64,000 nucleotides of DNA from Rhizobium etli 8C-3 (GTDB lineage Bacteria > Pseudomonadota > Alphaproteobacteria > Rhizobiales > Rhizobiaceae): NCBI RefSeq assembly GCF_001908375.1, contig NZ_CP017242.1:310001-374000 (forward strand), written 5' to 3'. Under the pieces are notes generated by a model. It had not been told where the DNA came from, made no database searches, and was given only the letters and a program-made list of their open reading frames with translations. A program made the position numbers and the translations under genes. This document shows positions 1 through 47,850 of the stretch, piece by piece. How positions within the stretch are numbered: the first letter of the stretch is position 1; each line of letters begins with the position of its first letter.

Positions 1-281
1 GCGGCGAGATGGGTGGGCATGCCATTGTCGTGGGTCTGGGAAGCGAGGCGACCGCCGACCTCGGAGGAGGCCTCAAGGATGGTGACATTGCCACCGCAGT
101 TGAGAGCCTTCTCACCAGTAGTCACGCCAGTGAAGCCGGCACCGATGATGAGGACCTGGGTGTCGAAGGGATAGGCTCCATGAGCGCCGTCAGGACCACC
201 GCAGGCTTCAGTCCATTTGTCGGTGCGCATAAGAGGGAAGTCGGCGCTGGCCTGAGAGTACTGATCATCGGCGGTAGCCAT
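1..281 (-). CDS. N-terminal part of a flavin amine-oxidase/monooxygenase-like protein, eukaryote-style gene in T-DNA 1
   Basis: Partial gene: it starts at an ATG ending at 281 and runs off the left edge, giving 93 residues. Residues 44-80 hold the FAD-binding Rossmann signature VLIIGAGFTG, the acidic strand end ILEAS and the GGRL motif, the usual start of the flavin amine oxidase superfamily (amine and amino acid oxidases, and tryptophan or lysine 2-monooxygenases, which make amides). The start context CACCATGG is a good eukaryotic initiation context, and there is no Shine-Dalgarno sequence. The upstream sequence is a eukaryotic-type promoter, and a T-DNA border-like repeat follows at 883. 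I infer a gene meant for expression in a eukaryotic recipient. The subfamily cannot be decided because the substrate domain lies outside the window. Confidence 0.75.
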   Translation of the reverse strand, partial: MATADDQYSQASADFPLMRTDKWTEACGGPDGAHGAYPFDTQVLIIGAGFTGVTTGEKALNCGGNVTILEASSEVGGRLASQTHDNGMPTHLA

Positions 282-882: not shown

Positions 883-907
883 TAGCAGGATATATATGTA
901 TGTAGGC
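883..907 (+). other. T-DNA right-border-like repeat (T-DNA 1)
   Basis: The 25 bases start TAGCAGGATATATATG and match the nopaline-type border TGGCAGGATATAT...TGTAAAC (remembered) at 17 of 25 positions. The match includes the uninterrupted GCAGGATATAT core, with TGTA correctly spaced at positions 19-22. Orientation makes this a right border with T-DNA to its left, where the eukaryote-style gene lies. Overdrive-like repeats lie to its right, the side expected for a right border. Confidence 0.7.
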
Positions 908-20390: not shown

Positions 20391-21027
20391 CACCTATTCA
20401 GTTGAGTATGTACCAACGGCGCGTTATCGCGCGGATGTATGAGAAGAGAATCAGTCAGGCCGAGATCGCCCGCACCCTACACCGGGACCGCTCGACGATC
20501 TTCGGAGAGATCAGAGGCAATACCTTCGTCTATCGGGAGATGTCAGACCTCAATGGCTCGGCGTGTGAACGACGCGCCAAGCTGCGGAGGCTTTTGCATC
20601 TCTTGCGCGTACGCGGACCTGAACCGCTCCGGGATTGCCGGAGACCCAACTCGTGAGAAGGAGGGTCTATGAGAAGCAAGACGTCGAACAAATTCTCCCC
20701 CTGAAGTCCGTGCCGTGCGAATGATGACGGAACACGAAGCAGAGTAGCCGTCGCGTGGGCTGCTGTTTCCTCGATCGCCGCCAAGATCGGCTGCGCGGCG
20801 CATACGCTTAATGAGTAGGTGAAGAAGGCCGAGGTCGACAGCGGTTATATCGTCGGCATCGAAGGAGACCTCAACTATGAGAATGGAACGAGGATTCGTT
20901 CGGCGCCGCCAATGTCGGAACGGACCTCTCAGGCTCGGTGCGGCTACGTGTCGGAGAAGAACTCGGCGGCCTCCTTCCTTATGTGGCCGCAGGCTGGGCT
21001 GCGATGAACGCCTATGTCGAAAATCCC
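20025..21027. repeat. Direct repeat: piece of the outer-membrane gene duplicated
   Basis: 20025-20210 (inside the barrel gene) is repeated almost exactly at 20840-21027, from the codons for FIVGIEGDLNY to YVENP, with a few base changes and small gaps. The 630 bp between the copies hold IS30 and IS3 scraps, and the second copy runs into an IS110 remnant. Unequal recombination or duplicative insertion is the likely cause. Confidence 0.92.
20402..20838 (+). mobile_element. IS30 and IS3-family transposase fragments
   Basis: 20402-20560 encodes the helix-turn-helix start of an IS30 transposase (RVIARMYEKRISQAEIARTL then HRDRSTI), truncated. 20669-20838 encodes a broken IS3-family OrfA start (MRSKTSNKFSPE, then IAAKIGCAAHTLNEWVKKAE after frame changes and a stop). 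Both are dead scraps between the two copies of the outer-membrane repeat. Confidence 0.65.
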
Positions 21028-21029
21028 GA

Positions 21030-21989
21030 GTTTCCCCCGTCCAGCCAACATGCGATAGCGAGCTGTCAGTCGACTCTGAGCCTTCCATGCGATCTCTCGA
21101 ACTTTCGATGGAGCCCCGCTCCATGGGGTAGAGTTTCCTTGTGCCGACCCTCGGCGGATGCCTATAGGTCCATGCGCTCTCGACCAGCATGTGCCGGACT
21201 CGACCGTTATCAGCCTTGGTGATTGCGCCCCGTCTGACCGTCTCGCCCGTGGATCGCTCACCCGGAACCAAACCGAGATACCCCATCAGTTGGCGAGGGC
21301 TTTCAAATCGGGTCACGTCACCGACTTCCCTGCGAAGGTGACGGCGACAATCAGATCCACACCTCGCAGGGTCTGGAGCGCTCGAACAACAGAGGCGAGA
21401 GACCAGTTCGGGACGAACTCCTCGATCACCTTCTCCAATCGTTCGACGCGCTCTTTCGAGACGCGTACCGCCTCGACCATTTCCTGCAGTGCTATCTGAT
21501 GTGCCGGATGATCGAACTGCTGCTCCTGAAGCCAGCGCAGGTATCGCATTGTCCAGCCCTTCTTGCGTGGATATGCGACCATGCTTGAGCATGAAGGCGC
21601 TTACTTGTTGCCGGTGAATCCGCAATGTCTCAACAGCAGCAGCTCGAGCACAAGAGCATCTCGACGGTCGTCTTGACGCGGTCACCAGGCTTTCTCGGGA
21701 TCAGCGACGGAGCGACAACCATGCAGTCATGGCCCAGCGACTTGATGAGCCGGTGGAGGCCGTAAGCCGTGGGGCTGGCCTCGTAGCAGAAATGCACGTG
21801 ATCAAACTTTGCGGCTATACGCTGGATAATGCGGCGCATGCTGGCATCCGATCCCTCAACCTCGCCGACATAACGGATCTCTCCGTTCCGGCCAGATTCA
21901 GCAATCGCAATTGCATTCTTCAGCTTGGCAACATCGATTCCGACAAAAGCTTCTCTATAATCTGCCACGGCTCGTCCTCCTCCGGCCAT
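21030..21989 (-). mobile_element. IS110-family transposase, broken
   Basis: N-terminal DEDD domain at 21989-21645 (FVGIDVAKLKNAIAIAESG, then HFCYEASPTAYGLHRLI). The central part (21582-21320) and the transposase_20 C-terminal domain (RFESPRQLMGYLGLVPGE, then GRVRHMLVESAW) lie in other frames, with part of the middle missing. It is inactive. It directly abuts a second IS110 remnant facing the other way at about 21990. Confidence 0.85.
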
Positions 21990-22789
21990 TTGCGTCGGTG
22001 CCCGTCATGCCAAGGCGGCGCTCGACATGGCCGCCAACAAAACCGATGCCAATGACGCCGATGGGCTCGCGCACCTAGCGGAGTCGGTTTCTTCCGCGAA
22101 GTCCGAGTAAAGTCCTTCGACAGCATGCTTTCTCGGACATTGGTCGCGGCTCGCACGAAACTCATGCGAACGACACTGGATCTGGCGAACCGGCTCGAGG
22201 ATTGATGAAAACGTTCGGCCTTATCGTTCCGTGCAGTATGGGTGGCAAGTCTGAGGTGCATGTTCGCTCCCTCCTGGCCGACAACGCCGGCCTTTCGAGG
22301 ATAATCCTGCCCTTAGTCGAAGCGTGGCGTAGTCTGCGCCTCCAGGTGGCTAGGTTGGGGAAGCAGCTCCTCGCCGAAGCACGTAGAAACCAGCAATGTC
22401 AGTTGCTGATGTCGATCCCCGGCGTTGGCGCGATCACAGCTACTGCCTACCTAACTGCCGTCGAGGATCCCGCGAACTTCAAGCGATCGCGCTCGGTAGG
22501 CGCATGGCTGGGGCTGACGACGCGGCGCTATCAGTCAGGCGAAGTAGATTATGACGGCCATATCTCCCGACGCGGTGACACTCATGTGCGTTCGCTTCTC
22601 TACGAAGCGGCGGTGGTGATCCTGACCCGCAGCCGGGCCGACAGCGATCTGCGTAGATGGGGTATAAAACTACGCGAGAAGATTGGCTTCAAACGCTCCG
22701 CGGTCGCTGTCGCCCGCAAACTCGCCGTCATCATGCATGCGATGCTGCGCTCCGGTGAGCTCTTCAACAGGGCGACAGCCACCATCTAA
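21990..22789 (+). mobile_element. Second IS110-family transposase, 5'-truncated and frameshifted
   Basis: It begins inside the N-terminal domain (AKAALDMAANKTDANDADGL near 22010), breaks frame near 22080, and continues from 22202 as a clean C-terminal half (LLMSIPGVGAITATAYLTAV, SVGAWLGLTTRRYQSGEVDY, VAVARKLAVIMHAML). It is a different element from the one at 21030-21989. 22790-23009 shows no gene. Confidence 0.85.
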
Positions 22790-23265: not shown

Positions 23266-23887
23266 AGGTGTCCAGCTCCTGCGTCAGGGCAGACGCATCT
23301 CATGCCCCAGAAGGAGCAGCGCCTTGCCGGATACGCTCCTCCATCAAGACCTTACGCTCCAGGACAATACGGCGGAGATCTTCTTCATCAGGCGTAGGCA
23401 CCGGCAGCATCGGGCCGACCCGCGGCCCTCCGCGCCTGAAGGCGAGCAACGCTGGATCAGCGTCTCCCATCGAGCCTGTCCGCCTCGCTCGCCGTCGCCA
23501 GCGTGATGTTGATATCGCAGCTGCGTCGACGACATGGCTGTTGTAACCTTCACTTGTCGCCGCCTGATGTCACGTGTCGGCGCCCGCGCTTCACGTCGTG
23601 CTCCTACAACGGCACGAAGTGGCTGTCACGTCGTTACCGGCCGAACAATCGGGTTCCCGGGTCATGGACACGTCAAAGGGATCGTATTGCCCCTCCAGCC
23701 TCCCAAGCCGGTCGCGCTCTGGAAAGAACGCGCCAAGCATGGGGAAATAATCATGCAAGGCGAACATGCTGATCCCTTGGGGCGACAATTGCCGTTCGGT
23801 CCCGGGCATAAAAACAACAACAGCACTTGCCGCGGCTTGCTCCCAAATAGTGGCTTGGCCGTCGGATGCCATGAAAATCCGTTTCGA

Positions 23888-23912
23888 TGGCAGGATAAAG
23901 ACGACTGTAGTT
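23888..23912 (+). other. Candidate T-DNA left-border-like repeat (weak)
   Basis: 25 bases starting TGGCAGGATAAAGACG. The first ten match the nopaline-type border exactly and TGTA recurs at positions 19-22; total 15 of 25 by my count. The orientation is the same as the two stronger repeats, so with 29436-29460 it would bracket a 5.57-kb T-DNA of three eukaryote-style genes. The CAGGATA core continues as AAG, not TAT, so this may be a diverged border or chance. It overlaps the left arm of an inverted repeat. Confidence 0.35.
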
Positions 23913-24014
23913 ATCTTCCAGCTTTTTCGGCTTCGCCTTCCCGTCGCTTCGCTCGAGGGAGTGCATGCACACGGCTTTCCGAAAAAGCTTTCGATAACTA
24001 CAGTCGTCTTTATC
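23894..24014. repeat. Large near-perfect inverted repeat (about 37-bp arms)
   Basis: The left arm 23894-23930 begins GATAAAGACGACTGTAGTTA. The right arm 23979-24014 is its near-perfect complement, with a 48-bp spacer. The arms could form a long hairpin, or be the ends of a tiny non-coding mobile element. It sits at the presumed left edge of T-DNA 2. From 24015 to 24367 there is no bacterial gene; 24290-24367 is a possible eukaryotic promoter. Confidence 0.85.
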
Positions 24015-24367
24015 GGTGCTGAATTTAGGTTCGGAACTCGTTAAGTCAGAGCCAGAAGATGACGATTGCTGCAATGCATATGCTTGAGAAGAAGGCATGA
24101 GCGCAGCGGTCGTATCGGGTGTGAATTCGCCGCCAGTCCTTCAGGCCGGAGGAAATGTCCCGAGATCATCCGGCAGCTGACATGCAACCCCTGGCTTGAC
24201 TACACGTTTCACTCCCAGGCCGCATGATGCACAGCTTAGCGCCCGTAAGCTGACGTGCTATGTCAGCTGAGCGATTTATCGGCGGCCACCACTATTAAAT
24301 GGATACCTCCACCTCGTCTCGCCGAAATCTCTGCCAGCTAAATCGCATCGTTTCATCAACTTTCACA

Positions 24368-25036
24368 ATGTCCGTGGATCGTTACGAAGCCAATACTTCC
24401 AGGCCGCGTGATCCGCCTGTCACAATCGAAAACTCTCCAACTGAAGTTAATTCCGCTGAGGATGCGGCAGAGACTGTATCCCAACTCAACAGTCCGACCA
24501 GGTCGCCAACGCCCTCCATCCTCACGGAGAATGACGATCAAAATAATCCCTTTCATCCTCGCTATACCGGGCCGCCCCTGTCCGCATACCATGCAGCATA
24601 TCGAGAATGGCACGCTAGACAACAAACTCGTCATCATCACTATCTCGATCAGTGGCCCGATGCGATGTACACGGGTTTTCCTGCCGCAGGTTCTCTAATT
24701 TCTGAGGCGACATGCACCTATTGCGCCGCCGGAGGCCTCGGATACTGCCAATGCGCACGAAGGTTGACGGTTCGTCATCCGCCGCCGCCTTCCAGAGCCG
24801 ACGAGCAGGATCCGCGTGCGCAGCAAGTGAACGCCCAAATTGCGGTTTACGGCAACAACACGACCATTGTTTATGGGGCAGATCGGCCGCCAAACACTAC
24901 AACGCGACCTGACGCTGACAGGCAGAGGCTGCCTGTGACCAGAGACGACGACGAGGATCTTTGCTACCCGGAGGAGGATGCCGGGGGACTATTCTTTTTT
25001 CTCTTTGGCAAAGCACAACCTGAACAACAGGCTTAG
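24368..25036 (+). CDS. Unknown protein, eukaryote-style gene in T-DNA 2
   Basis: A 222-residue frame starting at ATG 24368 (context TTTCACAATGTCC); an in-frame ATG at 24299 is less favoured because it overlaps a TATTAAAT element (about 24292) 75 bp upstream. I do not recognise the family. The protein is hydrophilic and rich in Pro, Thr, Ser and Asp, with two cysteine-rich patches (TCTYCAAGG, YCQCARR) that might bind metal, an acidic patch DDDEDLCYPEED, and a short hydrophobic FFFLF near the C-terminus. No signal peptide and no Shine-Dalgarno. Placement between border-like repeats and composition suggest eukaryotic expression. It is convergent with the spliced gene at 25371. Confidence 0.5.
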   Translation: MSVDRYEANTSRPRDPPVTIENSPTEVNSAEDAAETVSQLNSPTRSPTPSILTENDDQNNPFHPRYTGPPLSAYHAAYREWHARQQTRHHHYLDQWPDAMYTGFPAAGSLISEATCTYCAAGGLGYCQCARRLTVRHPPPPSRADEQDPRAQQVNAQIAVYGNNTTIVYGADRPPNTTTRPDADRQRLPVTRDDDEDLCYPEEDAGGLFFFLFGKAQPEQQA

Positions 25037-25370
25037 GAATTTAGATTATCAATTGTACCTAAGACCGTCTCCGAAATTTCCATGATCCTTTGTTCTACTC
25101 TAAAATACCGTGACCATCCTCACGACAGATTATCTGGATTACATGTTTACGGAAAGCAATGTTTCGGGAACCGCAAGTATTATATTTTTTTGGGGCACCA
25201 GGCCATTTTCTGTTCCCTGACTATTGATTTCATGTCCGGTCACGGCGCCACCCGTAACCGGTTTTTTATGTGGTAAAAAGGCAACCCGACAAAGAAAACC
25301 CTGTTTCAATTCCTCCCGCGTATGCAGCCTTCCTCAGCAGGTCTACCGCCAAATCCATGAACACACCCGA

Positions 25371-26980
25371 CTACCCCTTATGGGGCGGCTGAAGCTCGTT
25401 CAAGGGATATTCATGGGTCATGACTTTGTAGGTCGGCTTTCCCTTCTCGTCGATGTGAGCGTCATAGGAGATCGCATCCCAGCACCTGTCCGCAACGACC
25501 AAGGGAAACACGAAGCCCTCTTGCTGAAGCTGGCCGACGGTGGCCTGATCCTTGCACAGGTCGCGGAGTTTACCCCATGGATCCAAACCGTTGCCCTCAA
25601 ACCTGAACTTGTAATATATTTCACCCTCGCAGACATCCGGCCCTCGTATAAGTCCTCTGAACACGATACCCCGATTACGACGACTGAGGTCGTGAAAGAT
25701 TTCAATCGTCGCGGCATCGTCCCGCATGGCGCCCAGCAGGACGGGGTCCACTACCGGCTTCCCCTGCACGTCTACCGCCGTGTCATTGGCGGGATCGTAG
25801 CGTATTCCGGTTGTGTAGATGGGCATTCCAAGCGCGAAGGTAGTGAGAGAAGGATGAGCGAGGAAACCGTCTGCCCAGGCAATGCCGCTTTTGACGAGGT
25901 TGTGATAGGTTCTGGTGACTGGCGGGGCTCGTTCCTTCTCGGCGCGCTTGGCAGCGTTTTTGATGATCGGCCCGACGCGCACGACAGGTAGGAGCTTGAC
26001 CTCGTTCACGTTGTCGGACGGATCCTCATCCTGAATTTTCCGCCAAAGAACGTCTGCGTCTGGGATCGTGTAAGGGTAAAACTCCACGATGGTGTGCGGC
26101 AACAGGTGAGGCCGATGGCTGAGCTGCGCGATGAATGGCGCGATATCATCATTTTTCAGGTCTGGGAGGAACGCTGGAAGTTTTGGTCTGTGAAGGGCTG
26201 CGAACGAATTCTGAAGCATTTCCATCATCCAGAAAACGTCGGGCAACTGTGAAACCAGTTAGTTCCGTGGATACCGAGGGGGGAGCGCATGCCTACCCAT
26301 TCGTCGGTTAGGTGAAAACGGTCGGTGAATTCACCATCTACGATTTCCTTGACGATGATCGGGCGACCGATGACCTCTTCCGGCGTGAGCTCGCTCCACC
26401 GCTTGGCCAGTCCGATCGTGCGCTCTGCGGTCTCGTCATGACTGAGGACAAAAGTCGTCGCCTCTCCATGCTGCCGGGAAAGTTGCATGACATCCGGTTC
26501 GGCGAGCAGGGCGCTCAACAGGAAGGCTATGAAGAACGCTCCTGTCGTGTTCTCGGGATGAAGGGCAGGTTCGTAAACTCCGCGGTGGGCTGCATATTGA
26601 GGCCGAGATTTAGCCGTGATTGCGTCCAGCCCCTCACCGATGGTGCGTTCGGAAAAAATGTCAGCGATCGTTAAACCCTTGGGGACCTGCAACTCGATGT
26701 CGGTGGGACGCCAGCGGCTCTCTGAGACTGGGATGCAGTTCGGGTTCGCTTCCAGCTCCTATGTAGCCAGTTAGCTTGAAACGAACATCTGGCCTGGCAA
26801 TCTTACCGCGCGCCATGTCTTGTAACGCTCCTCGATCTCTGGAGATGGAAAGGGGAACGTCGGGACATGAATATCCCTCAAGTTGATCGTGAGTTCGGAT
26901 TGGGTACGGAGTGCCTTCAGCAGGCCTTCGTTTCCCTTGATGGGGTCAACCTTGGCGGTGGATTTGACTGGCGGGGCCAT
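25371..26980 (-). CDS. Intron-containing fungal-type gene, 503-residue protein of unknown function
   Basis: Three exons on the minus strand: 26980-26807 (58 codons), 26758-26297 (154 codons) and 26246-25371 (291 codons plus stop). Each exon boundary is phase 0, and removing both introns gives one uninterrupted 503-residue protein; unspliced, translation stops after 70 residues. The ATG context (CACAAATGGCC) is eukaryotic, with a TATA box 86 bp upstream and no Shine-Dalgarno. I do not recognise the family: no signal peptide, few hydrophobic segments, an HLTDEW-LPDVFWMMEML junction across intron 2, and a conserved-looking C-terminal half with GIAWADGFLAHPSL and DAATIEIFHDLSRR. It is a soluble enzyme-like protein by appearance only. 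It cannot be expressed in a bacterium as written. Confidence 0.85.
26247..26296 (-). other. Spliceosomal intron 2 (50 nt), fungal type
   Basis: Minus strand: donor GTAGGC at 26296-26291, branch-site-like ACTAAC about 13 nt from the end, acceptor CACAG ending at 26247. Phase 0. Without removal the frame reads ten or so odd residues and stops. Confidence 0.8.
26759..26806 (-). other. Spliceosomal intron 1 (48 nt), fungal type
   Basis: Minus strand: donor GTAAGA at 26806-26801, branch-site-like GCTAAC about 14 nt from the end, acceptor CATAG ending at 26759. It contains an in-frame TAA (part of CTAAC), so it must be removed to express the protein. Size and signals are those of filamentous ascomycete introns; plant introns are usually longer and lack a strong CTAAC. 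Confidence 0.88.
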
Positions 26981-27080
26981 TTGTGCATTGGACCGGACAA
27001 AGAGATGTTTTGTTGATCCTAGAGGGTAGGATGAAGAAGGTGAGTTCAGGCGCGAGGGAAGCGGGTTTTATAGATGACGG
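26981..27080 (-). promoter_or_regulatory. Eukaryotic-type promoter of the spliced gene
   Basis: TATA box TATAAAA at 27072-27066, about 88 bp upstream of the ATG at 26980, followed by a C/T-rich and then A/C-rich leader. From 27081 to 27651 no convincing gene is seen; this stretch presumably holds the upstream promoter and the 3' end of the next gene. Confidence 0.6.
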
Positions 27081-27651
27081 CACGGCTCGATCAGGGAGGG
27101 AATGGACGGAGGGGTCGGGAAGCAGAAAAAGATGGGCATGCGGTTTGACCCTGAAAACAAAGCGCTGTGCCGCTTGCGAAATCGGCTTGCGTCATCAGGT
27201 GGCGGCGCGCTTACGTGTCGAAGGATGACACAGGGCTTGCAGATACGAGCGCCACGGCATAGTTGGGGCCTTGGCTGCAGGGTTGGCGCTTCAACTGGCC
27301 ACGTTAGGTTGACGGCTATTGGAGCACGGGCTCATTCCACGCCGCACCATCACCGCGGCGCTCAGGCTATATGCGGAGATACATCTTCATCCTACGGCCA
27401 ATCGACTGTCTGTCACGGATGCCTCGGGACGAGTGATTTTTTCGGCTCACGCCAACTGCGCTCTCGCCTACCCAAATCTATTCAAGTTTTGAGCCTCCCC
27501 TTTTCTACAACACGCTAATGTACAATGGAGTGGAGATTTTTTCGCAAAAGACAAACACAATCCTCACAAGACCTTCAGCTCGCTCCCTAACCTGAGAGGC
27601 GCTCAGCCATTCCCACGCAACCAATCCATACGAAGATCAAGAATAGCACAC

Positions 27652-29124
27652 CTATCGCTTCACGCACGACCATAGCCAGAAAAATGGAAACCAGATGATG
27701 TAAACCGTCAGCGATGCGCCCGACACCTCGTAAAGCCAGACCAGCACAGGTACGATGTCGTTCGAGAACACAGACTTGATGAACGCAAGTGGCACTCCCA
27801 CGGCAACCCTGTTTCCCATCGGTTCGAGGAACTGTCCTTCCGTCACGAGATTGGAAATTCCCATGACGAGAAACGACGGAATCGAACCGATAACGAGCAC
27901 GGAGGTTTTCGAAGCTAGAGACCTTGGCGAGATCAGGCCATTGCGAACGTCCCGCATCTGCTCGGAAATGACCCAGGATAGTTTGCTGACCTGATCCATA
28001 ATGACCGCAAGCTGGTTGTGAAAGAAACCAATCTGGGCAAGCATGAATAGGAAAACGATGATCGGATAGACACGCTTGCTGCTTCGCGCGTACATCTCCT
28101 GCGGAGCAGCATGTTCAGGGAGAGGGGGAGCGCAATGTGCGACAATCCGTTGCAGGCACCCGAGATGCTCGACAACCAGATCATATTTCCTCATTGTCAT
28201 CGCGCTGCATTTCACCCCGTCGCGCTGCAACAGCAGGTTCTCCAGGTTTTGGTTGATACGCTCTCCGTAAGTGCGCAGGGTAGCCTTTTGCGCATCATCG
28301 ATCTCGACCGACTTCGCAAGGATGCGGGCGAGAGAGCGATGGTTCAGGTAGCGCGGCGCGCCTGTCACGCCGAAGAGTATGGTTGCGGAAAGCATCGTCA
28401 GCAGAAATTGTAGCCAGATCTCGTGCCGCCGGGAGCGGACCGCGTCGGAGAAGAACAGGCATAGAACCATTCCAGGGGGCAGGTTCTGAAGAAACCTGAA
28501 CTTCCAGACGTGAACGTTGAGGTCCCACGTGGCAGAGCCGTAGACTACGGCGAGCACTATCATGCAGAGCGAGCGAGGGACCGCAGTCAAGGCGCCGACG
28601 ACAAAAACCCATTCTTGCTGAAAGACGCCGGGAATGACGGGCGCGGCGAGAGAGGTGAAGAGAATGAGAAATGCCAGGATGCGAAAGGGAATTGAGATGC
28701 CGTTTTCGAAGCTTTGAAGTTCGTGGACGGCCTTGGAGCCGTGGCAGTCCAAGGCGTCCCTGATGTCTTCGGGCAGGGTGGCAACGATCTGCATGACCCT
28801 GCCATCAGCTTCTCCAACAGATGGATCGTTCCGGCCCGTTGGCTTGCGAACCGCAGCAAGACTGTTTGTCAGGGCCAAACGTCCCTCAGCACTTTCCTGA
28901 AAAAGGTGGTCATCGTTGAAGGAGGAGATGTCCTCCTTGAGACTGCTTCCTTCCCACCATTCGAGGAAGAAGTTTCTGGTGAAAACCCCTTTGAGGAATT
29001 GAGGTTGCTGCCGCCAGAAGCTCAACTGCTTGGCCCAGGCCGCGCCGAAGCCGGTGGGTTGGACAGTCTCGGGTTGATGGGAAAGAGCCGAAAGGGGATC
29101 AACGTCTTCAGCGGGGTGCGCCAT
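27652..29124 (-). CDS. Multi-pass membrane protein of fungal type in T-DNA 2
   Basis: A 490-residue intronless frame with about seven or eight hydrophobic segments: 150-170, 175-200, 215-230, 243-262, 345-362, 395-415 and a long C-terminal stretch ending WFPFFWLWSCVKR. The N-terminal 140 residues are soluble and aromatic-rich (WRQQPQFLKGVFTRNFFLEW). The look is that of uncharacterised fungal membrane proteins; I cannot name a family. It has no Shine-Dalgarno, and a TATA box (TATAAGAA) lies about 100 bp upstream. It transcribes away from the right border at 29436. It could be an exporter for a T-DNA product, but that is a guess. Confidence 0.7.
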   Translation of the reverse strand: MAHPAEDVDPLSALSHQPETVQPTGFGAAWAKQLSFWRQQPQFLKGVFTRNFFLEWWEGSSLKEDISSFNDDHLFQESAEGRLALTNSLAAVRKPTGRNDPSVGEADGRVMQIVATLPEDIRDALDCHGSKAVHELQSFENGISIPFRILAFLILFTSLAAPVIPGVFQQEWVFVVGALTAVPRSLCMIVLAVVYGSATWDLNVHVWKFRFLQNLPPGMVLCLFFSDAVRSRRHEIWLQFLLTMLSATILFGVTGAPRYLNHRSLARILAKSVEIDDAQKATLRTYGERINQNLENLLLQRDGVKCSAMTMRKYDLVVEHLGCLQRIVAHCAPPLPEHAAPQEMYARSSKRVYPIIVFLFMLAQIGFFHNQLAVIMDQVSKLSWVISEQMRDVRNGLISPRSLASKTSVLVIGSIPSFLVMGISNLVTEGQFLEPMGNRVAVGVPLAFIKSVFSNDIVPVLVWLYEVSGASLTVYIIWFPFFWLWSCVKR

Positions 29125-29240
29125 AATCGAGAGAGAGAAAAGAGTGCAGAGAGACTAGGGAACAAGGGGATGCGGTTGAGGAGGAAAGAACGGAACATCA
29201 GGCAGGCAGGGCGGGGGGCGCCTTCTTATAGTTCTGGCTG
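29125..29240 (-). promoter_or_regulatory. Eukaryotic-type promoter of the membrane-protein gene
   Basis: TATA element TATAAGAA at 29230-29223, about 100 bp before the ATG at 29124, followed by a CT-rich leader ending in CTCTCTCTCG. This is the same arrangement as at 421 and 27066. 29241-29435 is upstream promoter sequence without a gene. Confidence 0.55.
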
Positions 29241-29435
29241 CCTTGCAAGCAGCGCAAGGAAGCGGGGAGGTCCGGATGAGGGCTTGGTGCGGTTGCCTGG
29301 AGCTGCGCCCCCTTTGCGAGAGAGGTGACATGGGTGATGACGTGTCTCCGCTTCACTGGACGCCACCTCGGGCTCGCGAAATTGCCGCAACACGCCAAGG
29401 CTCGTATCCGGATCGGGCTGGCGCGAAATTGGATT

Positions 29436-29460
29436 TTGCAGGATATAGGGAAGTGTAAAG
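29436..29460 (+). other. T-DNA right-border-like repeat (T-DNA 2)
   Basis: The 25 bases begin TTGCAGGATATAGGG and end AAGTGTAAAG, matching the nopaline-type border (remembered) at 19 of 25 positions: GCAGGATATA is exact and GTGTAAA is exact at the proper spacing. Orientation puts T-DNA to the left, where the eukaryote-style genes are. No clear overdrive is seen to the right; 29461-29490 holds only a loose CAGATGTT and a CAATTG element. Confidence 0.75.
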
Positions 29461-29540: not shown

Positions 29541-30698
29541 CTAAAGCAGAGTCGCCTTGAAAGGCAGAGCAGCAGCGCCGATCGCCGAAGGATTGCCGGA
29601 AAGATCCGAGACGATGAGCTTGGCGATCGGCCGGCTTACCCCGTAGCGGGGAACGTGCGCAATCTTTGTCCCGGTGACGAACATCTCCGCCAGCCTGGGC
29701 GGAATTTGTCCGCCGAAAACGATGGCTTGCGGATCAATAATAGAGCAAATCGCATTGATGATCCGGTTGTAGACGGGAAGGACATCCTCCACCCATTCTG
29801 CAACGCCTTCCCAGGACGGATCGAAGCTCTTTCGCAGATGTCCGACGGAAGACAGGTGAATGCCGTGTTGTGCCAGGTGGCGGATTAGGTTCTGCAGCGC
29901 GGGGCGGCGATTGTCCTCGTGTTCCTCATAAATGCCGCTGAATTCGCCCGCATTTCCAAACGAGCCTGTGACGAGTTCGCCGGCGATGATCAAAGCGCCG
30001 CCGAAGCCATAGTTGAAAGACAGATAGCAGAAGTCCGGCACATGGCGCCCGACGCCCAGCATGGCTTCGCAGATCGCTGCGGTGTTGGCAGCGTTCTCCG
30101 TCCAGACAGGCGCATCCAGGCGGCTGCTCAGCAGCGGCTCGAGCTGGATCAGCGACCAGTCCTGCAGGGGTATGGGTGCGTTGAATGCCGTTCCCTCGAC
30201 ACGATAGCCGGCGATGGCAAAACCCACGCCCAGAAGATTGGCCCGATCGAGCCCGTGTTCCCGGAGCATCTTTTCAATAAGCGCCGAGACCTGATCCAGC
30301 GAGGCGTCGCGCGTCTTGCCGACGATGTCTATCTCGGCTGTTTCGTGCCGGCCTGAAAGCCGCATGACGGTAACGCCGATCTGGTCCGTATTGACGGATA
30401 TACCGATCGTAAACGCCCAGTCTTCGCTCAGCGACAGGGTGGGACTGGGCTGCCCTCGGCCGGCCGCCGGCTTCGGCGGGCCTAGACTGACAATGCCGCG
30501 CGCGGAAAGATTATCGATCGTCTTATGCAGCGCTTGCTGTGTGTAGGGCAGGCGCGAGGCGAGTTCGGCCCTGGAGATCAAAGGCTGTTTCCAGAGTTCA
30601 CGCAGGATCAGGCGTTCGTTGCCGGAGGCAATGGACTCATCTGAGTGGAGGCGCATGAAGCGCCGCATGATTGGCTTGAGAGGGCGTTGCGGGATCAT
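29541..30698 (-). CDS. ROK-family (NagC/XylR-type) transcriptional regulator
   Basis: A 385-residue protein with an N-terminal winged helix (residues 25-75, LILRELWKQPLISRAELASR) and a ROK sugar-kinase-like domain (LLGVGFAIAGYRVEGTAFN, FNYGFGGALIIAGELVTG). It is divergent from the ABC operon at 30860 with a 161-bp gap carrying two inverted repeats, so it probably represses that operon until a sugar-like ligand binds. The zinc-binding cysteine cluster of many ROK repressors is not evident. The gene ends 80 bp from the T-DNA border. Confidence 0.88.
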   Translation of the reverse strand: MIPQRPLKPIMRRFMRLHSDESIASGNERLILRELWKQPLISRAELASRLPYTQQALHKTIDNLSARGIVSLGPPKPAAGRGQPSPTLSLSEDWAFTIGISVNTDQIGVTVMRLSGRHETAEIDIVGKTRDASLDQVSALIEKMLREHGLDRANLLGVGFAIAGYRVEGTAFNAPIPLQDWSLIQLEPLLSSRLDAPVWTENAANTAAICEAMLGVGRHVPDFCYLSFNYGFGGALIIAGELVTGSFGNAGEFSGIYEEHEDNRRPALQNLIRHLAQHGIHLSSVGHLRKSFDPSWEGVAEWVEDVLPVYNRIINAICSIIDPQAIVFGGQIPPRLAEMFVTGTKIAHVPRYGVSRPIAKLIVSDLSGNPSAIGAAALPFKATLL

Positions 30699-30859: not shown

Positions 30860-32161
30860 ATGCCGTTCCGTGCCTCCATATCGATGCTGGCCTTGCTGGT
30901 GTCTCCCTGCGCAGCCTCTGCTGCCGACATCGAGTTCTGGTATGGCAACATCGGGACCGCCGAAAAAGCCATCGTGGCTGCCTGCGGCGCCTTCAACGCC
31001 GCGCAGCAGGCGCACAGCGTTACCTGCGTCGGACAGGGCGGTTACGAGCCTACAATGCAGAAGGCAATCGCGGCCTACAGATCTGGCAAGCACCCGGTGC
31101 TGATCCAGTTCTTCGACGCCGGCACGCTCGATCTCATGCTGTCGGACGCGGTCGTGCCGGTCGAGCAGGCCATGCCCGAAGTGAACTGGAAAGATTACCT
31201 GGCTGGCGCCCGGTCGTTCTATGCGACTTCCAAGGGGGAGCTCTACTCCCAGCCCTACAATGGTACGACGCTGGTCTTCTACGGCAATGCCGAGCTTCTT
31301 GCAAAAGCTCGGATCGACAAGCTACCGGAGACCTATGAGGAGCTTGCGGCCGTTGCCCGCAAGCTTAAGGATGCCGGGGTCGAATGCCCTATCACGACGG
31401 ACGGCCATCCCTGGCGTGTCTTGGAGCAGGTCGCCGCGCGCCATAGCGTGCCGATTGCATCCAGGCACAACGGATATGACGGCCTCGACGCCGAATACAC
31501 GTTCAACAGAGGTCTGATAGCCGAACACCTCGAAAACCTGCTCAGATGGCGGCAGGAGGGTCTCGTCAAGCTAGACCAGGATACCCGGACAGGCAAATAC
31601 ACAGCGGCCTTCAATTCCGGCGAGTGCGCACTTATGGAAGCGTCCAGCGGTCTCTATGTCGATGCCTTCAAAGCGCTGGGCGACAAGGTCATGGTTGCCC
31701 AAGCACCGATGTACGAGGGACACAAACGCTACAACACGCTTATCGGCGGGGCCTCGATCTGGCTAATGAAGGGGCATGACGAGGACAGGATCGAAGCTGC
31801 CCGGGCGTTCCTCGACTTTATTCGCAGGGACGATCAACAGATCGAATTCACCCGCGCCACAGGCAATCTTCCGGTAACGCGGTCCGCGCTCGAATTGTTA
31901 CAATCATCCGACAAGACCAGGGAAACCGAATTCGCCACGGTCGATGCGGGGGTCCGGTCGCTAAGCGCCGAATCCACGGACGACAGCCGCGGTATACGTC
32001 TCGGCTTCTACATGCAGTTCCGCGAGATCTTCCAGGAAGAAACGCAAAAGGCCTTTGCCGGCGATCAGTCGATGTCGCAAGCTCTTGATCTTGCCGTCGC
32101 CAGGGGCAACGAGCTCCTGCGTCGCTTTGAGAAGACCTACAGCAATGTGACGCTCCCCTGA
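30860..32161 (+). CDS. UgpB-like periplasmic binding protein
   Basis: A 433-residue extracellular binding protein of the carbohydrate-uptake family 1, closest in feel to the sn-glycerol-3-phosphate binding protein UgpB (AADIEFWYGNIG, ACGAFNAAQ, TLDLMLSDAVVPVE, YNTLIGGASIWLMKG). The signal peptide spans residues 1-22 (ISMLALLVSPCAASA). The Shine-Dalgarno is weak (GCGAGGGA). First gene of an operon with two permeases, an ATPase and two phosphoesterases, which points to a phosphodiester ligand. Confidence 0.87.
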   Translation: MPFRASISMLALLVSPCAASAADIEFWYGNIGTAEKAIVAACGAFNAAQQAHSVTCVGQGGYEPTMQKAIAAYRSGKHPVLIQFFDAGTLDLMLSDAVVPVEQAMPEVNWKDYLAGARSFYATSKGELYSQPYNGTTLVFYGNAELLAKARIDKLPETYEELAAVARKLKDAGVECPITTDGHPWRVLEQVAARHSVPIASRHNGYDGLDAEYTFNRGLIAEHLENLLRWRQEGLVKLDQDTRTGKYTAAFNSGECALMEASSGLYVDAFKALGDKVMVAQAPMYEGHKRYNTLIGGASIWLMKGHDEDRIEAARAFLDFIRRDDQQIEFTRATGNLPVTRSALELLQSSDKTRETEFATVDAGVRSLSAESTDDSRGIRLGFYMQFREIFQEETQKAFAGDQSMSQALDLAVARGNELLRRFEKTYSNVTLP

Positions 32162-32208
32162 AAAGCCCTTCGCCATTTGCTGCCGAAGGTCTCAACAAGC
32201 GAATTGCC

Positions 32209-33090
32209 ATGAAACAGACCTATTACACCTCGGGGTGGCACTATGCCTTGCTTGTGTCCCCCATTATCTTCCTGATCGGCCTCTTCTTCTATGTTCCGGT
32301 CGGGCTCGCCTTCTTCTGGTCGTTCTTTCTCGAGCGGCCATTCGGAGGCGGATCGGAATTCATCGGCTTTGCCAACTACGCCCGACTGCTCGGCGACACG
32401 ACATTCTGGTCAGCGCTCCACCTTTCGGGGATCTTCATGCTGCTGGCCGCCGGCTTCGGCGTCGCCATTGCCCTGATACTGGCGCTTGCGGCGGATCGAG
32501 ACCTGCGGCTCAGCGGCGCGGCGCGCAACATCATCCTCTGGCCGAAGGCGATCGCCGGCGCATCGATCGGGGTGGTGTTCACCTTCATCTTCAATCCGCA
32601 TCTCGGCCTTCTTGCGCCGCTGAGCACTCTGTTTCCAGGCGTGTGGAACCCGCGAATGGACGGAACGCAGGCATTTCTGATGCTGGTGGTGGCGCAGGTC
32701 TGGCACGGACTGCCGTTTAATTTCATCATCCTTCTGGCCGGGCTGCAGTCCCTGCCCGACACGCTAATCAAGGCGGCCGCGGTCGATGGCGCCGGGCCAT
32801 GGCGGCGCATTCTCGACATCCAGATCCCCTTGATCACGCCGCAGCTGTTTCTCGCTTTCGTGCTGGAATTCGTCGGCACGCTCGTTGATGTGTTCGGGCT
32901 GATCGACACAATGACGCAGGGCGGTCCGGGTGGCTCCACCACATTCCTGATCTACAAGATCTACAAAGACGGGTTCGTGGCCTATGACCTATCGGGCGCG
33001 GCGACCCAGACCGTCCTCCTGATGATTTTCGTGATCGCGATGGTGCTTCTACAGTTCCGGCTTGAGAAGCGCGTGAGATACGAACGGTAG
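32209..33090 (+). CDS. UgpA-like ABC permease
   Basis: A 293-residue inner-membrane protein with six predicted segments and the EAA loop IKAAAVDGAGPWRRILDIQI, typical of MalF/UgpA-type sugar permeases. It begins after the binding-protein gene with a 47-bp gap and is followed by the second permease 4 bp later. It pairs with the protein from 33095. Confidence 0.88.
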   Translation: MKQTYYTSGWHYALLVSPIIFLIGLFFYVPVGLAFFWSFFLERPFGGGSEFIGFANYARLLGDTTFWSALHLSGIFMLLAAGFGVAIALILALAADRDLRLSGAARNIILWPKAIAGASIGVVFTFIFNPHLGLLAPLSTLFPGVWNPRMDGTQAFLMLVVAQVWHGLPFNFIILLAGLQSLPDTLIKAAAVDGAGPWRRILDIQIPLITPQLFLAFVLEFVGTLVDVFGLIDTMTQGGPGGSTTFLIYKIYKDGFVAYDLSGAATQTVLLMIFVIAMVLLQFRLEKRVRYER

Positions 33091-33094
33091 CGCC

Positions 33095-34015
33095 ATGATC
33101 GATGGAACATCAAGCATCAACCGTGTGGCGACAGTCGTTCTGCTCTTTGGGATCGTGTTCATCCTCGGACCGGTGGCCGTCGCCATAGTCACGGCGACGC
33201 AATCATTCGAGCAGTTCATCGCCAATGGTGGCATCAGCATCACCATCGGCGGCAGCTTCATCAATAACCTCGGCCACATCGTCACCGAGACCCGGCTACC
33301 ACAGCAATTGCTGAACTCTGTCGTCGTCGCAATCCTCGTGGCGGGCGTCAAATGCTCGTTCGCCTTCACGGCGACCTTTGCACTGGTTTTCTTCGAATCG
33401 CGGTGGAACAAGGTGATCTTCGCGCTCACCGTCGCCACGGTGATGCTGCCGCTGGAGCTGATCGTGATCACCACCTACCAGATCGTCTCTAACATCGCGA
33501 TGCCGCTGAACTGGATTCTCGATCTGACTGGGCTCGGCTGGGTAGCCGAGCGCATGACGGGCACGCGGCCCTATATCGAGTGGAACCTGCTGGGCAGCTA
33601 TGTCGGGATTGCGGCGCCGATCGCAACTGCGAGTACCTCCGTCTTTGTCTATCGGCAGTTCTTCCTGTCCTTGCCGAAGGATCTGTCTCGCGCCGCCGCC
33701 ATGGACGGGGCCGGGCCGATCCGCTTTATGATAGACATCCTGCTGCCGCTCTCGCGTACGCCACTGGTCGCGACATTCCTGTTCTGGTTCATCGGCGCCT
33801 GGACGAGCTATCTCTGGCCCCTTGTCGCGGCTACCACCCCGGACGCGCAGACCGCAATCGTCGGCCTGGCGAAGCTTTCGACCTACGAGCCCGACAGGAC
33901 GCCGGACGTTCCTGTGCTGATGGCAGGCGCGCTCTTCGTATCTTTCCTGCCTGTCGTCCTGATCGCGGCGCTGCAAGGGCTAATCGTCCGGGGCATGAAT
34001 CTTTCGGAGAAATGA
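33095..34015 (+). CDS. UgpE-like ABC permease
   Basis: A 306-residue permease with six predicted segments and the EAA loop SRAAAMDGAGPIRFMIDILL. It has the length and layout of UgpE/MalG partners. Its stop TGA overlaps the ATG of the ATPase gene (ATGA), which indicates translational coupling. Confidence 0.88.
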   Translation: MIDGTSSINRVATVVLLFGIVFILGPVAVAIVTATQSFEQFIANGGISITIGGSFINNLGHIVTETRLPQQLLNSVVVAILVAGVKCSFAFTATFALVFFESRWNKVIFALTVATVMLPLELIVITTYQIVSNIAMPLNWILDLTGLGWVAERMTGTRPYIEWNLLGSYVGIAAPIATASTSVFVYRQFFLSLPKDLSRAAAMDGAGPIRFMIDILLPLSRTPLVATFLFWFIGAWTSYLWPLVAATTPDAQTAIVGLAKLSTYEPDRTPDVPVLMAGALFVSFLPVVLIAALQGLIVRGMNLSEK

Positions 34016-35073
34016 CCGTGACGAAGAATGCAATCGTACTCGACGGACTTTCCAAGCGCTTTGGCTCGACGGACGTTATCCGCAACCTGTCAGCCTCGAT
34101 CGCGGAGCGCGAGTTCATCGTGGTCCTCGGTTCCTCGGGGTGCGGAAAATCGACGCTGCTCAACGTGATCGCGGGTCTCGAACGCTTGAGCGGGGGCCGC
34201 ATACTGGTCGATGGGCAAGAGGTGCAGGACAGGGAGCCGAAGGATCGCGGTTGCGCCATGGTGTTTCAGAACTATGCCCTCTATCCGCATATGAGTGTGG
34301 CGGACAACATCGGCTATGCGCTGAAGGTGGCCGGCGTGCCCGTTCCCGAACGTCGAAAACGCATCGAGGCCGCAGCGAGGACGGTCAACCTCGGCGACTT
34401 CCTCGAACGACGGCCCTCGGAACTTTCCGGGGGCCAGAGGCAGCGCGTCGCGATCGCCCGCGCCATTGTCAGGGAGCCGAAGGTGCTTCTGTTCGACGAG
34501 CCCCTTTCCAACCTCGATGCGAAGCTGCGATACGACACCCGCATGGAACTGGCGCAATTGCATCGCCGGATCGGAGCGACCAGCATCTTCGTGACCCATG
34601 ACCAAGTCGAGGCGATGACGCTCGCGGACCGGGTTATGCTGCTGAATGCCGGTCGCATCGAGCAGTTCGCGCCGCCGCATGAGCTTTACAATCGGCCCTG
34701 CTCGACGTTCGTCGCCGGCTTTATCGGATCGCCGGCAATGAACCTGTTCGCTGCCTCAGGCGACGGTCAGATGCTGCGGTTGCTTGATGGAACCGCGATC
34801 GCGCGACATGGCCACAAGGGCGAGGTGGTCGTCGGCATACGGCCGGAAAAGATAATCGCTGACGATGACGGCATACCGGCCGTCGTTCGTCATCACGAGG
34901 ATCTCGGGTCGCATGCCGTCTTCTCGGTTAACTTCCTGTCTGGCCAGAAGGCGGTGTTTTCCACGTCGCTCGGGGCAAACACCGTGGCACCCGCAGCCGA
35001 ACTGCGCCTGAGACTGCCTTCGCAGCATCTTCATCTCTTCGACAGTCAAACAGGTCGGCGCTTCGAGAACTGA
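34012..35073 (+). CDS. UgpC/MalK-type ABC ATPase
   Basis: A 353-residue ATPase starting at the ATG that overlaps the permease stop. Walker A is GSSGCGKST (about residues 38-46), the signature LSGGQRQRVAIARAI, Walker B VLLFDEPLSNLDAK, followed by the C-terminal regulatory OB-like domain of CUT1 ATPases (VVVGIRPEKI). It energises import through the two permeases. A 46-bp gap leads to the phosphodiesterase gene. Confidence 0.92.
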   Translation: MTVTKNAIVLDGLSKRFGSTDVIRNLSASIAEREFIVVLGSSGCGKSTLLNVIAGLERLSGGRILVDGQEVQDREPKDRGCAMVFQNYALYPHMSVADNIGYALKVAGVPVPERRKRIEAAARTVNLGDFLERRPSELSGGQRQRVAIARAIVREPKVLLFDEPLSNLDAKLRYDTRMELAQLHRRIGATSIFVTHDQVEAMTLADRVMLLNAGRIEQFAPPHELYNRPCSTFVAGFIGSPAMNLFAASGDGQMLRLLDGTAIARHGHKGEVVVGIRPEKIIADDDGIPAVVRHHEDLGSHAVFSVNFLSGQKAVFSTSLGANTVAPAAELRLRLPSQHLHLFDSQTGRRFEN

Positions 35074-35119: not shown

Positions 35120-35851
35120 ATGCAATCACTTCGACCTGACGCCGTTGCCCATCTCACCGGCATGCTCTACAACGTCGCCCGACCGAATGGAATCGTCCTG
35201 CCGGGAACTGCGGGCAAGTTCTGGTCGGATGGGACGGTCCAGACTTGGCCCGGCAACACGTTCATCTGCCACCTCGATTCGGCGTCTGACGCATTTGCCG
35301 CAATTCGCGAGATGCAGGAAACAGCCAAACGCAGCGAGTTCAATCGGTTCTTCACCTTCCTGCCACCGTCGAGTTTCCACATGACGATATTGCAGGGAGT
35401 CACGGCGGCGTGCAGGCAGGGAGACGGCTGGCCGCAGGACGTGTCTGCGGGTGCGACGCGAGACACCATCAGTGCGGAGCTTCTTAAGCGCACCGCCGAT
35501 CTGAGGCTTCCATCGTCGTTTCGTGTCCGTTTCATCGATCTTTTCGCGGGTAGCAGCCTGACCATCGCGGGGGCCGACGACGGCGAAGAAAAAAAGCTTC
35601 GGTCGGTTCGCAAGGCCATACGCGATGCGGCCCGCATCCCGCAGGCGGGGTTCGACGAATACGTCTTCCACATTTCCTATGCGTATCAGCTCGAATTTGT
35701 ATCCGAAACGCTTGCGAGCGAAATCACGGCTTTCAGCATGGAACTGTCAAATCGATTCCGTGACCGGCTTGGTGAGATCGAGCTCGGACCAGTCGAGTTC
35801 TGCCACTTCGAAACCATGCATCATTACACGCCCATCCGTCTGTTCAGGTGA
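35120..35851 (+). CDS. DUF1868 / 2H-type phosphodiesterase
   Basis: A 243-residue protein of the 2H phosphoesterase superfamily (relatives: cyclic phosphodiesterases and 2'-5' RNA ligases). The two catalytic histidine motifs are visible: FHMTI (HxT) near residue 90 and FHISY (HxS) near residue 184. N-terminal GIVLPGTAGKFW and the YNVARPNG start resemble DUF1868. In this operon it would open or split an imported phosphodiester, whose phosphate the next gene product could remove. The substrate is unknown. Confidence 0.8.
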   Translation: MQSLRPDAVAHLTGMLYNVARPNGIVLPGTAGKFWSDGTVQTWPGNTFICHLDSASDAFAAIREMQETAKRSEFNRFFTFLPPSSFHMTILQGVTAACRQGDGWPQDVSAGATRDTISAELLKRTADLRLPSSFRVRFIDLFAGSSLTIAGADDGEEKKLRSVRKAIRDAARIPQAGFDEYVFHISYAYQLEFVSETLASEITAFSMELSNRFRDRLGEIELGPVEFCHFETMHHYTPIRLFR

Positions 35852-35860
35852 TCGTCGACC

Positions 35861-36721
35861 ATGAAAGCTTTCCTTCCCCAAGTCATCATTGATGGCTTGA
35901 TCGACGCGGTGCGCGACACCGCAAGGCGTGAGATCATGCCGCGTTTCCGTAACCTGCGGCCGGGGGCGATAGATACCAAGTCGGCGCCCGACGATCTGGT
36001 GACGGAGGCCGACCGGGCTGCCGAGCGCGCAATTACCGATGCTGTCCGAGTTCTTCTGCCCGCGGCGCTGGTCGTGGGAGAGGAAGCCGCGTTCGAGACG
36101 CCCGGCCTCCTCGATGAACTGGCAACCGCTGAAATGGCAGTCATCGTCGATCCTGTGGATGGCACCTGGAATTTCGCAAACGGACTGGCCGTGTTCGGCG
36201 TCATACTAGCCGTCACGATCCGCGGCGAGACGGTCTTCGGCCTACTCTACGATCCGGTAATGGATGACTGGATCGTGGCCGAGCGCGGCAGGGGGGCTTG
36301 GTATTGCCGGCCGGGGAAGGCGCCAGTCCGCTGCCCTGGACCGTCCCGCAAACCGCTCGGTGAAAGTCATGGGGTTGTGCCGCTGTTCCTGTTTCCAAAA
36401 GAGCAGCAGGCCGGCATCGCCGCCTGTTTCCAGAAAATCAACCGCGTCTCCGCTTTGCGCTGTTCATGCCATGAATATCGCATGATGGCCCTCGGCTCCG
36501 TCGACTTCATCCTCTCGCCCATGGCGAAGCCGTGGGACCACGCCGCAGGACTCCTGGTCATCGAGGAGTGCGGCGGACAGGTTATCTCCGGTCAGCGCTG
36601 CGGGTACGCACCAGGATTTCCGCAAATGCCGCTCATTGCCTGCGGACATGGCGCCGAAGAGATACAGGCAATTTTCTTCCCTTGGACAGGTTCCCATTCC
36701 GGAACTGCACGTGGCAGTTGA
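35861..36721 (+). CDS. Inositol monophosphatase-family phosphatase
   Basis: A 286-residue protein with the metal-binding motifs of the family: TEADRAAERAI (Asp/Glu), VDPVDGTWNF (DPxDGT) and KPWDHAAG (WDxAAG). It hydrolyses sugar- or inositol-type monophosphates. It begins 9 bp after the phosphodiesterase stop. The pair recalls the agrocinopine operon of Agrobacterium, where a phosphodiesterase (AccF) and a phosphatase (AccG) process an imported sugar phosphodiester. The specific substrate is inferred. Confidence 0.87.
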   Translation: MKAFLPQVIIDGLIDAVRDTARREIMPRFRNLRPGAIDTKSAPDDLVTEADRAAERAITDAVRVLLPAALVVGEEAAFETPGLLDELATAEMAVIVDPVDGTWNFANGLAVFGVILAVTIRGETVFGLLYDPVMDDWIVAERGRGAWYCRPGKAPVRCPGPSRKPLGESHGVVPLFLFPKEQQAGIAACFQKINRVSALRCSCHEYRMMALGSVDFILSPMAKPWDHAAGLLVIEECGGQVISGQRCGYAPGFPQMPLIACGHGAEEIQAIFFPWTGSHSGTARGS

Positions 36722-44956: not shown

Positions 44957-45403
44957 GGTCTACACAGGCTCGACGGCGGGCGGGGTTTAGAAGTTTCCCT
45001 TCGGAGTAACGTGTACTTGCCGGTGAAACTTTGTTTTCATCGTTAATTACAAATGTAGTTATAAACGATTTGCAAATTCGAAAAACAAAAAATATTGTTT
45101 ACCTGTAATGTAAATGGATTGTATGGTTATTATATAAAAAAATGTCGTAAATAACTCAAGTTATTCAATAGTTAATATTTTTACTACGGATAAATACTTA
45201 GAATTATTTAATACCTGTGTGCTGGTGGAAAATGATGAATCGTTCCCTCTCATCCTGCCAACCGCCGGCACACAGGTTTCGACCATCCAGGTATGGTCAC
45301 TCTAATGGAGGCGCAGCGTACACCTATGGCTCTTTTGGTGCCGGGCTGGAACCGGTGCGTGACGTCGGTTGTCGTCACGGGAATATCCGCGCCACACAAT
45401 GGA

Positions 45404-46507: not shown

Positions 46508-46534
46508 AAATCTTATAGAAGGAATGATTTTGAT

Positions 46535-47794: not shown

Positions 47795-47850
47795 CATAAT
47801 ATGAAATCCGATATTCATTCGAAATTATAATAATTATAAACGGATTTATT

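Follow-up and report, generated by a model that had tools for sequence, protein, structure and literature searches.

A border-flanked, T-DNA-like segment of Rhizobium etli 8C-3 with an agrocinopine-synthase-like gene cut by two putative introns, likely expressed after transfer into a fungus

Why should a gene on a vir-bearing rhizobial contig be readable as one frame only when two short, intron-like segments are taken out of it, and in what kind of cell would it be read? The question arose from a preliminary description of 64,000 nt of Rhizobium etli 8C-3 DNA, here called the window, which is C2:310001-374000 of the 430,631-bp vir-bearing contig (C2); coordinates below are given as C2 or window positions. 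According to that description, three open stretches of the minus strand join into one 503-residue frame after removal of 26759-26806 and 26247-26296, and this was re-derived from the sequence. The spliced exons encode 503 residues without internal stops, and the unspliced frame meets TAA and TAG within intron 1 and is shifted at intron 2. The GT donors, AG acceptors, CTAAC motifs and phase 0 of both putative introns are as originally noted; CTAAC, placed there 13-14 nt before the intron end, is instead followed by 11 nt in both introns. The features of the locus are collected in Table 1.

Table 1. Features of the split-gene locus and its surroundings, in window coordinates unless marked C2
Feature	Position	Strand	Remarks
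IaaM-like gene, 5' part, T-region C	1..281	-	586 aa; whole gene C2:308521-310281
Border-like 25-mer, right end of T-region C	883..907	+	3 mismatches to consensus
Proposed left border of T-region D	23888..23912	+	5 mismatches; runs into inverted repeat
Inverted repeat at left border of T-region D	23894..24014		22-nt arms, 77 nt apart; GACTGTAGT
222-aa orphan ORF	24368..25036	+	Paralogue in T-region B; start in CACA-ATG-TC
Exon 3	26246-25371	-	876 nt with stop; 26.1 bits alone, acs profile positions 141-255
Intron 2 (putative)	26296-26247	-	50 nt; GTAGGC...CTAAC (11 nt)...CAG; phase 0
Exon 2	26758-26297	-	462 nt; 24.0 bits alone, acs profile positions 3-134
Intron 1 (putative)	26806-26759	-	48 nt; GTAAGA...CTAAC (11 nt)...TAG; phase 0; two in-frame stops
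Exon 1	26980-26807	-	174 nt, 58 aa
TATAAA of synthase gene	27067..27072	-	92 nt before start codon
490-aa orphan ORF	27652..29124	-	Long hydrophobic stretches; no relative beyond own genome
Border-like 25-mer, right end of T-region D	29436..29460	+	3 mismatches
ROK-family regulator	29541..30698	-	Pfam ROK 1.5e-17
ABC sugar-type importer	30860..35073	+	SBP_bac_8, BPD_transp_1 twice, ABC_tran
Importer parts	30860-32161; 32209-33090 and 33095-34015; within 33580-35073	+	Binding protein; permeases; ATPase
2H-phosphoesterase	35120..35851	+	PF08975 1.5e-26; HMT (87) and HIS (184), 97 residues apart
Inositol-monophosphatase-family phosphatase	35861..36721	+	PF00459 6.1e-39

Both strands of the 430-kb contig were scanned for segments of the form GTRNG..CTRAC..YAG that join a blocked frame, 50 or more codons being open to either side. 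The scan gave 30 rows, some being alternative versions of a single site, so that in this GC-rich contig a single intron-like segment may be due to chance. CTAAC was present in three of the 30 rows, and two of those three are introns 1 and 2, 462 nt apart in one gene. Two consecutive intron-like segments in one frame are not expected by chance. An acs profile was made from eight uninterrupted synthase frames; in two of its rows, a longer frame was trimmed to begin with its first Met. With this profile the spliced protein scored 59.1 bits (E=9.2e-20), against the much lower scores of exon 2 and exon 3 alone, and splicing joins the matches of these two exons collinearly. At intron 2, 2764 stop-free excisions restore the frame, and the 50 best of them start at -8 to +22 nt from the donor; homology independently places the frame break at intron 2. 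The top-scoring excisions take out 56, 59 or 62 nt, and rank 179 falls to the observed excision of 50 nt; the best excisions are longer than intron 2, by about 9 nt, because the relatives are without about three residues there. Only eight of the 2764 have GT-AG ends, and the observed one is the top among them (scored with an earlier nine-row profile that included one wrong 53-aa row). For the 181 excisions whose scores equal or exceed that of the observed one, chance would give about 0.009 of the form GT..CTRAC..AG (5.2e-5 each). The homology test is limited to intron 2, since exon 1 had no homologue in the searches made.

These results bear on the view that the gene is a decayed T-DNA synthase in which two indel or stop lesions resemble introns by accident. 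One-off intron-like segments do exist on the contig, as the 30 scan rows indicate, the relatives are without introns, and the best homology fit removes 56-62 nt, not 50. Such decay is nevertheless quite unlikely, given that the 503 codons are otherwise open, that two CTAAC segments with the same 11-nt spacing and the same phase lie in one gene, that so few intron-like excisions are expected at a break defined by homology, and that the gene has a TATA-box leader and neighbouring ORFs that are open. Chance and pseudogene readings were accordingly disfavoured, on the whole-contig scan and the 2764 alternative excisions. There is a good case for reading the two GT-CTAAC-AG segments as putative introns.

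What might the spliced frame encode? When the spliced protein was compared by tblastn with 72,556 plasmids, 24 records were matched (17 from Agrobacterium and 7 from Rhizobium), the best, among the matches listed, with E=2e-8. Four of the matched records were examined, and all are Ti plasmids with border matches near the gene. Its neighbours there include RolB-family genes (two plasmids), iaaH (one) and FAD-dependent oxidoreductases (two); in the fourth plasmid, trehalose-6-phosphate synthase and insertion sequences lie beside the matched gene. The matched T-DNA genes, which are annotated as GDPD family, we take to be of the agrocinopine-synthase type (Acs). Identity of the spliced protein to its Acs-type relatives is 19-24%, and it has the GDPD-type motifs HRG, at residue 116 in exon 2, and HD, at residue 165. 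An ordinary GDPD from one of the matched Ti plasmids scored 6.2 bits with the acs profile, against the 59.1 bits of the spliced protein. By these comparisons the split gene is a predicted agrocinopine-synthase-like gene, closer to the Acs of T-DNAs than to ordinary GDPDs. Within the genus, at least 7 of 148 genomes, the strain's own included, gave a match to the synthase; this is a lower bound because one further genome has an acs-like ORF that the search missed, and one of the seven matches, at 6.3 bits with the acs profile, is no better than an ordinary GDPD. A word-based search of 5.8 billion proteins, in which 7,998 candidates were scored, gave none that reached E 0.001 with the spliced protein.

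The preliminary description had named bacterial homologues with coding intron segments as a finding that would speak against its reading; in the relatives, the frames are uninterrupted and the segments are absent, not coding. It had also offered, as one of two options, that the gene was captured very recently from a fungus, and this suggestion found no support in the plasmid collection searched: the 24 matched records are all Agrobacterium or Rhizobium plasmids, and the four examined are Ti plasmids. A variant would be that a fungal gene, or a T-DNA that gained introns while in a fungus, was recaptured by the plasmid as passive cargo. The introns are of fungal type, and the available part of one review tells of opine-enzyme-like sequences in fungi (PMC5606197). 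Recapture is still very unlikely in our judgement, as kin were found on plasmids only, within the collections searched, and as a gene that lies between borders, with neighbours of the same promoter type and a matching uptake operon, looks like one with a function.

The borders were sought with TGRCAGGATATATNNNNNNGTMAAC, which we took to be the T-DNA border consensus. With three or fewer mismatches allowed, the whole genome had five forward and no reverse matches, all on C2 (25-mers at C2:295401, 304371, 306827, 310883 and 339436, that at 306827 being perfect); random sequence would give an expected 0.05 per contig. Weaker forward copies were found at C2:290770 (4 mismatches), 301317 (5) and 333888 (5). 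Copies with 4-5 mismatches, including the proposed left borders of regions A, B and D, are at chance level when taken singly, and reverse matches of the same quality lie in the same area (C2:299945 and 302966). Each of the three weak forward copies runs into an inverted repeat, and on the contig GACTGTAGT is found only at these three left ends; for both reasons the three copies are proposed as left borders. We read this as four candidate T-regions: A (C2:290770-295425), B (C2:301317-304395), C (C2:306827-310907) and D (C2:333888-339460). T-region D, at window 23888-29460, holds the split gene. The case for taking the border-flanked segments to be putative T-DNAs is strong.

Window 23880-24995 has a 97% identical DNA copy at C2:301309-302422, 32 kb away, and no close relative of the T-region D segment was found in the searches made. 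The latter result is the one point in favour of a chimeric assembly containing fungal DNA, which the preliminary description had listed as a possible objection. Such a chimera is hardly credible, given a 430,631-bp contig that bears both repC (three matches, one partial) and the vir genes, in a 7.31-Mb genome of 4 contigs that is 99.99% complete; moreover, there are four segments of one design, the 97% copy is internal to the contig, and the kin of the gene are plasmid genes. To the left of T-region D, at window 20024-22789, pieces of IS110-type transposase surround a repeated fragment of an outer-membrane protein. Elsewhere in the window, the GC-poor stretch 45293-49683 has a saccharopine-dehydrogenase-family protein beside an NAD_binding_9 protein. 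Border matches with at most one mismatch were seen in 14 of 148 same-genus genomes, the strain's own included. Several of the border-bearing genomes are without an acs match and have small ORFs near their borders, and a TATA-like box was present at 5 of 7 starts examined near borders of other same-genus genomes. Perhaps these Rhizobium genomes harbour small T-DNAs that have been overlooked.

Profile searches placed a vir region at C2 258.5-283.9 kb, with virA, virG, virB1-6, virB8-11, virC1-2, virD1-2 and virD4. VirC1, VirG and one VirB11 model passed the NCBIfam cut-offs, and VirD2, VirC2 and the VirA-like kinase scored below them. VirE2 is a single-strand-binding protein present on many Ti plasmids; its profile, PF07229, gave no match on this genome and was equally silent on control genomes. 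Two orphan ORFs stand directly after virA, one of 560 aa (C2:284190-285872) and one of 508 aa (C2:285961-287487). Neither had a Pfam or NCBIfam match, and both are candidate genes for helper proteins that are translocated. The 508-aa ORF has, over residues 164-270, weak matches to two comparison loci (E 4e-4 and 7e-4), and searches for relatives of the 560-aa ORF found none beyond its own genome, save two weak Nocardia matches (E=0.9). Inside the vir region, adjoining virB11, a 475-aa ORF (C2:266763-268190) has a Zeta_toxin domain (2.4e-20). Plasmid p42a of R. etli CFN 42 likewise has a vir region on a Rhizobium plasmid, and, in the available portion of its description, neither T-DNA genes nor borders were found on it (PMC4788154). 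As far as that portion goes, C2 differs from p42a in its borders and candidate T-regions.

Directly outside the right border of T-region D are the genes for the ROK regulator, the importer, the 2H-phosphoesterase and the phosphatase (Table 1), a predicted operon suited to the uptake and cleavage of sugar phosphodiesters. A second operon, with genes for a binding protein, permeases, a ROK regulator and a GDSL hydrolase, starts from the right border of T-region A at C2:295.4-301.3 kb, and a partial repeat of it follows the right border of T-region B at C2:304.4-306.5 kb; perhaps it serves a second opine.

In the agrocinopine system of Agrobacterium/Rhizobium Ti and Ri plasmids, acs is on the T-DNA and the acc operon is outside it. 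The locus studied here is similar in having borders and a vir region, acs-like and IaaM-like genes inside border-flanked segments, and an operon for an importer, a phosphodiesterase and a phosphatase outside the T-DNA (for the pairing of AccF and AccG in agrocinopine use, see the available text of PMC4526662). It differs in the introns within coding sequence, the orphan T-region genes, the division into four small segments, the replacement of the GDPD-type phosphodiesterase by a 2H-phosphoesterase and, likely, the kingdom of the host. A second point of comparison is the xanthosan 'generation-uptake-utilization' system of Xanthomonas, for which the available part of the report describes a GDPD-derived synthetase, a ROK gene and the 2H-phosphoesterase XanP (PMC12807533). 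Within what that part covers, the GDPD-derived synthase, the ROK regulator and the 2H-phosphoesterase with two HxT/S motifs are all found here too. The xanthosan synthetase, however, enters its target by injection of the protein itself and uptake is by a TonB-dependent importer, whereas on C2 borders for DNA transfer flank the synthase gene and the importer encoded next to the border is of ABC type. For these last two reasons the arrangement on C2 would work like the xanthosan system but would not be a member of it. By analogy, we infer that the layout combines the agrocinopine and xanthosan types, with a DNA-delivered synthase and a bacterial uptake-and-cleavage kit.

The other T-region genes were examined for relatives and for expression signals. 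The IaaM-like protein of T-region C matched Pfam Amino_oxidase (1.5e-15), and its best PDB match was tryptophan 2-monooxygenase 4iv9 (E=5.1e-16), the kind of enzyme that the T-DNA auxin gene iaaM encodes; the searches made found no relative of it beyond its own genome. The large protein of T-region A matched only four plasmid records, three from Rhizobium and one from Agrobacterium. The one examined is an Ri plasmid, in which GDPD-family, FAD-oxidoreductase and RolB genes adjoin the match. The remaining T-region genes had no matches where searched. A single-sequence AlphaFold model of the 490-aa ORF was unusable (mean pLDDT 37). This ORF has TATAAG 106 nt before its start and a leader that is 82% pyrimidine in the last 60 nt. 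More generally, a TATA-like box precedes the start by 74-149 nt in 6 of 8 T-region ORFs, versus 6 of 165 control ORFs, and leader pyrimidine is 60-82% in T-region ORFs versus 49% (SD 6.5%) in controls. CAMM-ATG-NC, a start consensus of filamentous fungi, fits three of the eight T-region starts, two of which belong to paralogues, versus none of the 165 controls. In 13 genes from ordinary T-DNA areas, leader pyrimidine was 45-70%; because this overlaps the T-region values, the feature marks eukaryotic rather than strictly fungal expression. Codon and GC3 bias, looked at as a mark of fungal origin, did not set the T-regions apart. When the four T-regions were searched for introns under looser rules, no second gene was convincing, and introns are present in one alone of the roughly eight T-region genes. 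A 50-nt intron-like segment (C2:308104-308153, minus strand; GTATGT..CTGAC..CAG), which lies left of the window and downstream of the IaaM-like gene, joins 45 and 54 open codons.

Which host do the putative introns suggest? Plant introns are seldom as short as 48-50 nt. For Fusarium, the available text of one survey gives intron lengths of 42-529 nt with a median of 57, and CTRAY in 91% (PMC5677156). The lengths of 48 and 50 nt, the GT...YAG ends and the CTAAC branch sites fit these values. In intron 1, the donor GTAAGA and the acceptor TAG followed by G also fit the expected context of a donor near GTAAGT and a YAG followed by a purine. Intron 2 is less typical: its donor GTAGGC is weak, with G at +4 in 4% in the available Fusarium table, and its CAG is followed by T, not by a purine. 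The attribution of the introns to filamentous ascomycetes stands for length, ends and branch site, and is weakened by the donor and acceptor context of intron 2. From intron length, branch site and promoter features, a fungal host is likely.

A T-DNA aimed at a plant, an alga, an oomycete or another eukaryote would be an alternative, and short introns spliced there would be uninformative on fungi. The synthase and the T-region A protein both have their nearest kin on plant-transforming Ti/Ri plasmids, a plant would be a sensible target for an IaaM-like auxin gene, and the leader pyrimidine overlaps that of ordinary T-DNA genes. We nonetheless think such a host unlikely, as introns of 48 and 50 nt are below the usual plant size and normal by the Fusarium values at hand, and as three of the eight starts follow the filamentous-fungus consensus. 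An intron in a T-DNA gene has a precedent in rolA of the Ri T-DNA, which has a leader intron spliced in plants. The rolA intron is of plant size and in an untranslated leader, whereas the C2 gene has two fungus-sized introns in its coding sequence.

In sum, our main reading, to which we give a probability of roughly 0.7, is that the window contains a border-flanked, T-DNA-like segment with an intron-cut Acs-like gene that is likely expressed only after transfer into a fungus. The earlier proposal that the gene is meant to be read in a fungus is retained as the better of the two options offered, in view of the border-flanked segment, the vir contig and the Acs kin; the fungal identity of the host is held as likely only. 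Under the main reading, transfer would begin with border nicks made by VirD1/VirD2, and the strand would be passed on through the VirB/VirD4 channel. The recipient would transcribe the genes from their TATA-box promoters and splice out both introns, and the product of the resulting 503-residue GDPD-derived enzyme would be a sugar phosphodiester, an opine of agrocinopine-like or xanthosan-like kind. The bacterium would import this opine by the ABC transporter encoded next to the right border, split it by means of the 2H-phosphoesterase and remove the phosphate with the IMPase-family enzyme, all under control of the ROK regulator. Product and nutrient flow are put forward here as predictions, the chemistry included.

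We lean, at somewhat better than even odds, towards the fuller proposal of a natural 'fungal Ti plasmid', with four T-DNAs adapted for transcription and splicing in a filamentous fungus, which would be made to produce a private sugar-phosphodiester food. The plasmid would belong to the known T-DNA/opine kind; in the literature searched, no natural T-DNA was reported to have introns in its coding sequence. Agrobacterium transforms fungi in the laboratory. In the available part of a review, no bona fide natural T-DNA is recorded outside plants, and it is suggested that such transfer may occur in nature and should be looked for in fungi (PMC5606197). An intron-bearing T-DNA plasmid would supply the donor, the cargo and the motive, an opine to eat, for natural transfer into fungi. 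If the proposal is true, the introns would bar expression of the synthase in the bacterium and would be a host-specific expression lock carried on a bacterial plasmid. Fungi would then join the hosts of the opine strategy, the scattered T-DNA-like genes of fungal genomes would perhaps be explained, and fungi would be subject in nature to genetic colonisation across kingdoms, the counterpart of crown gall in plants.
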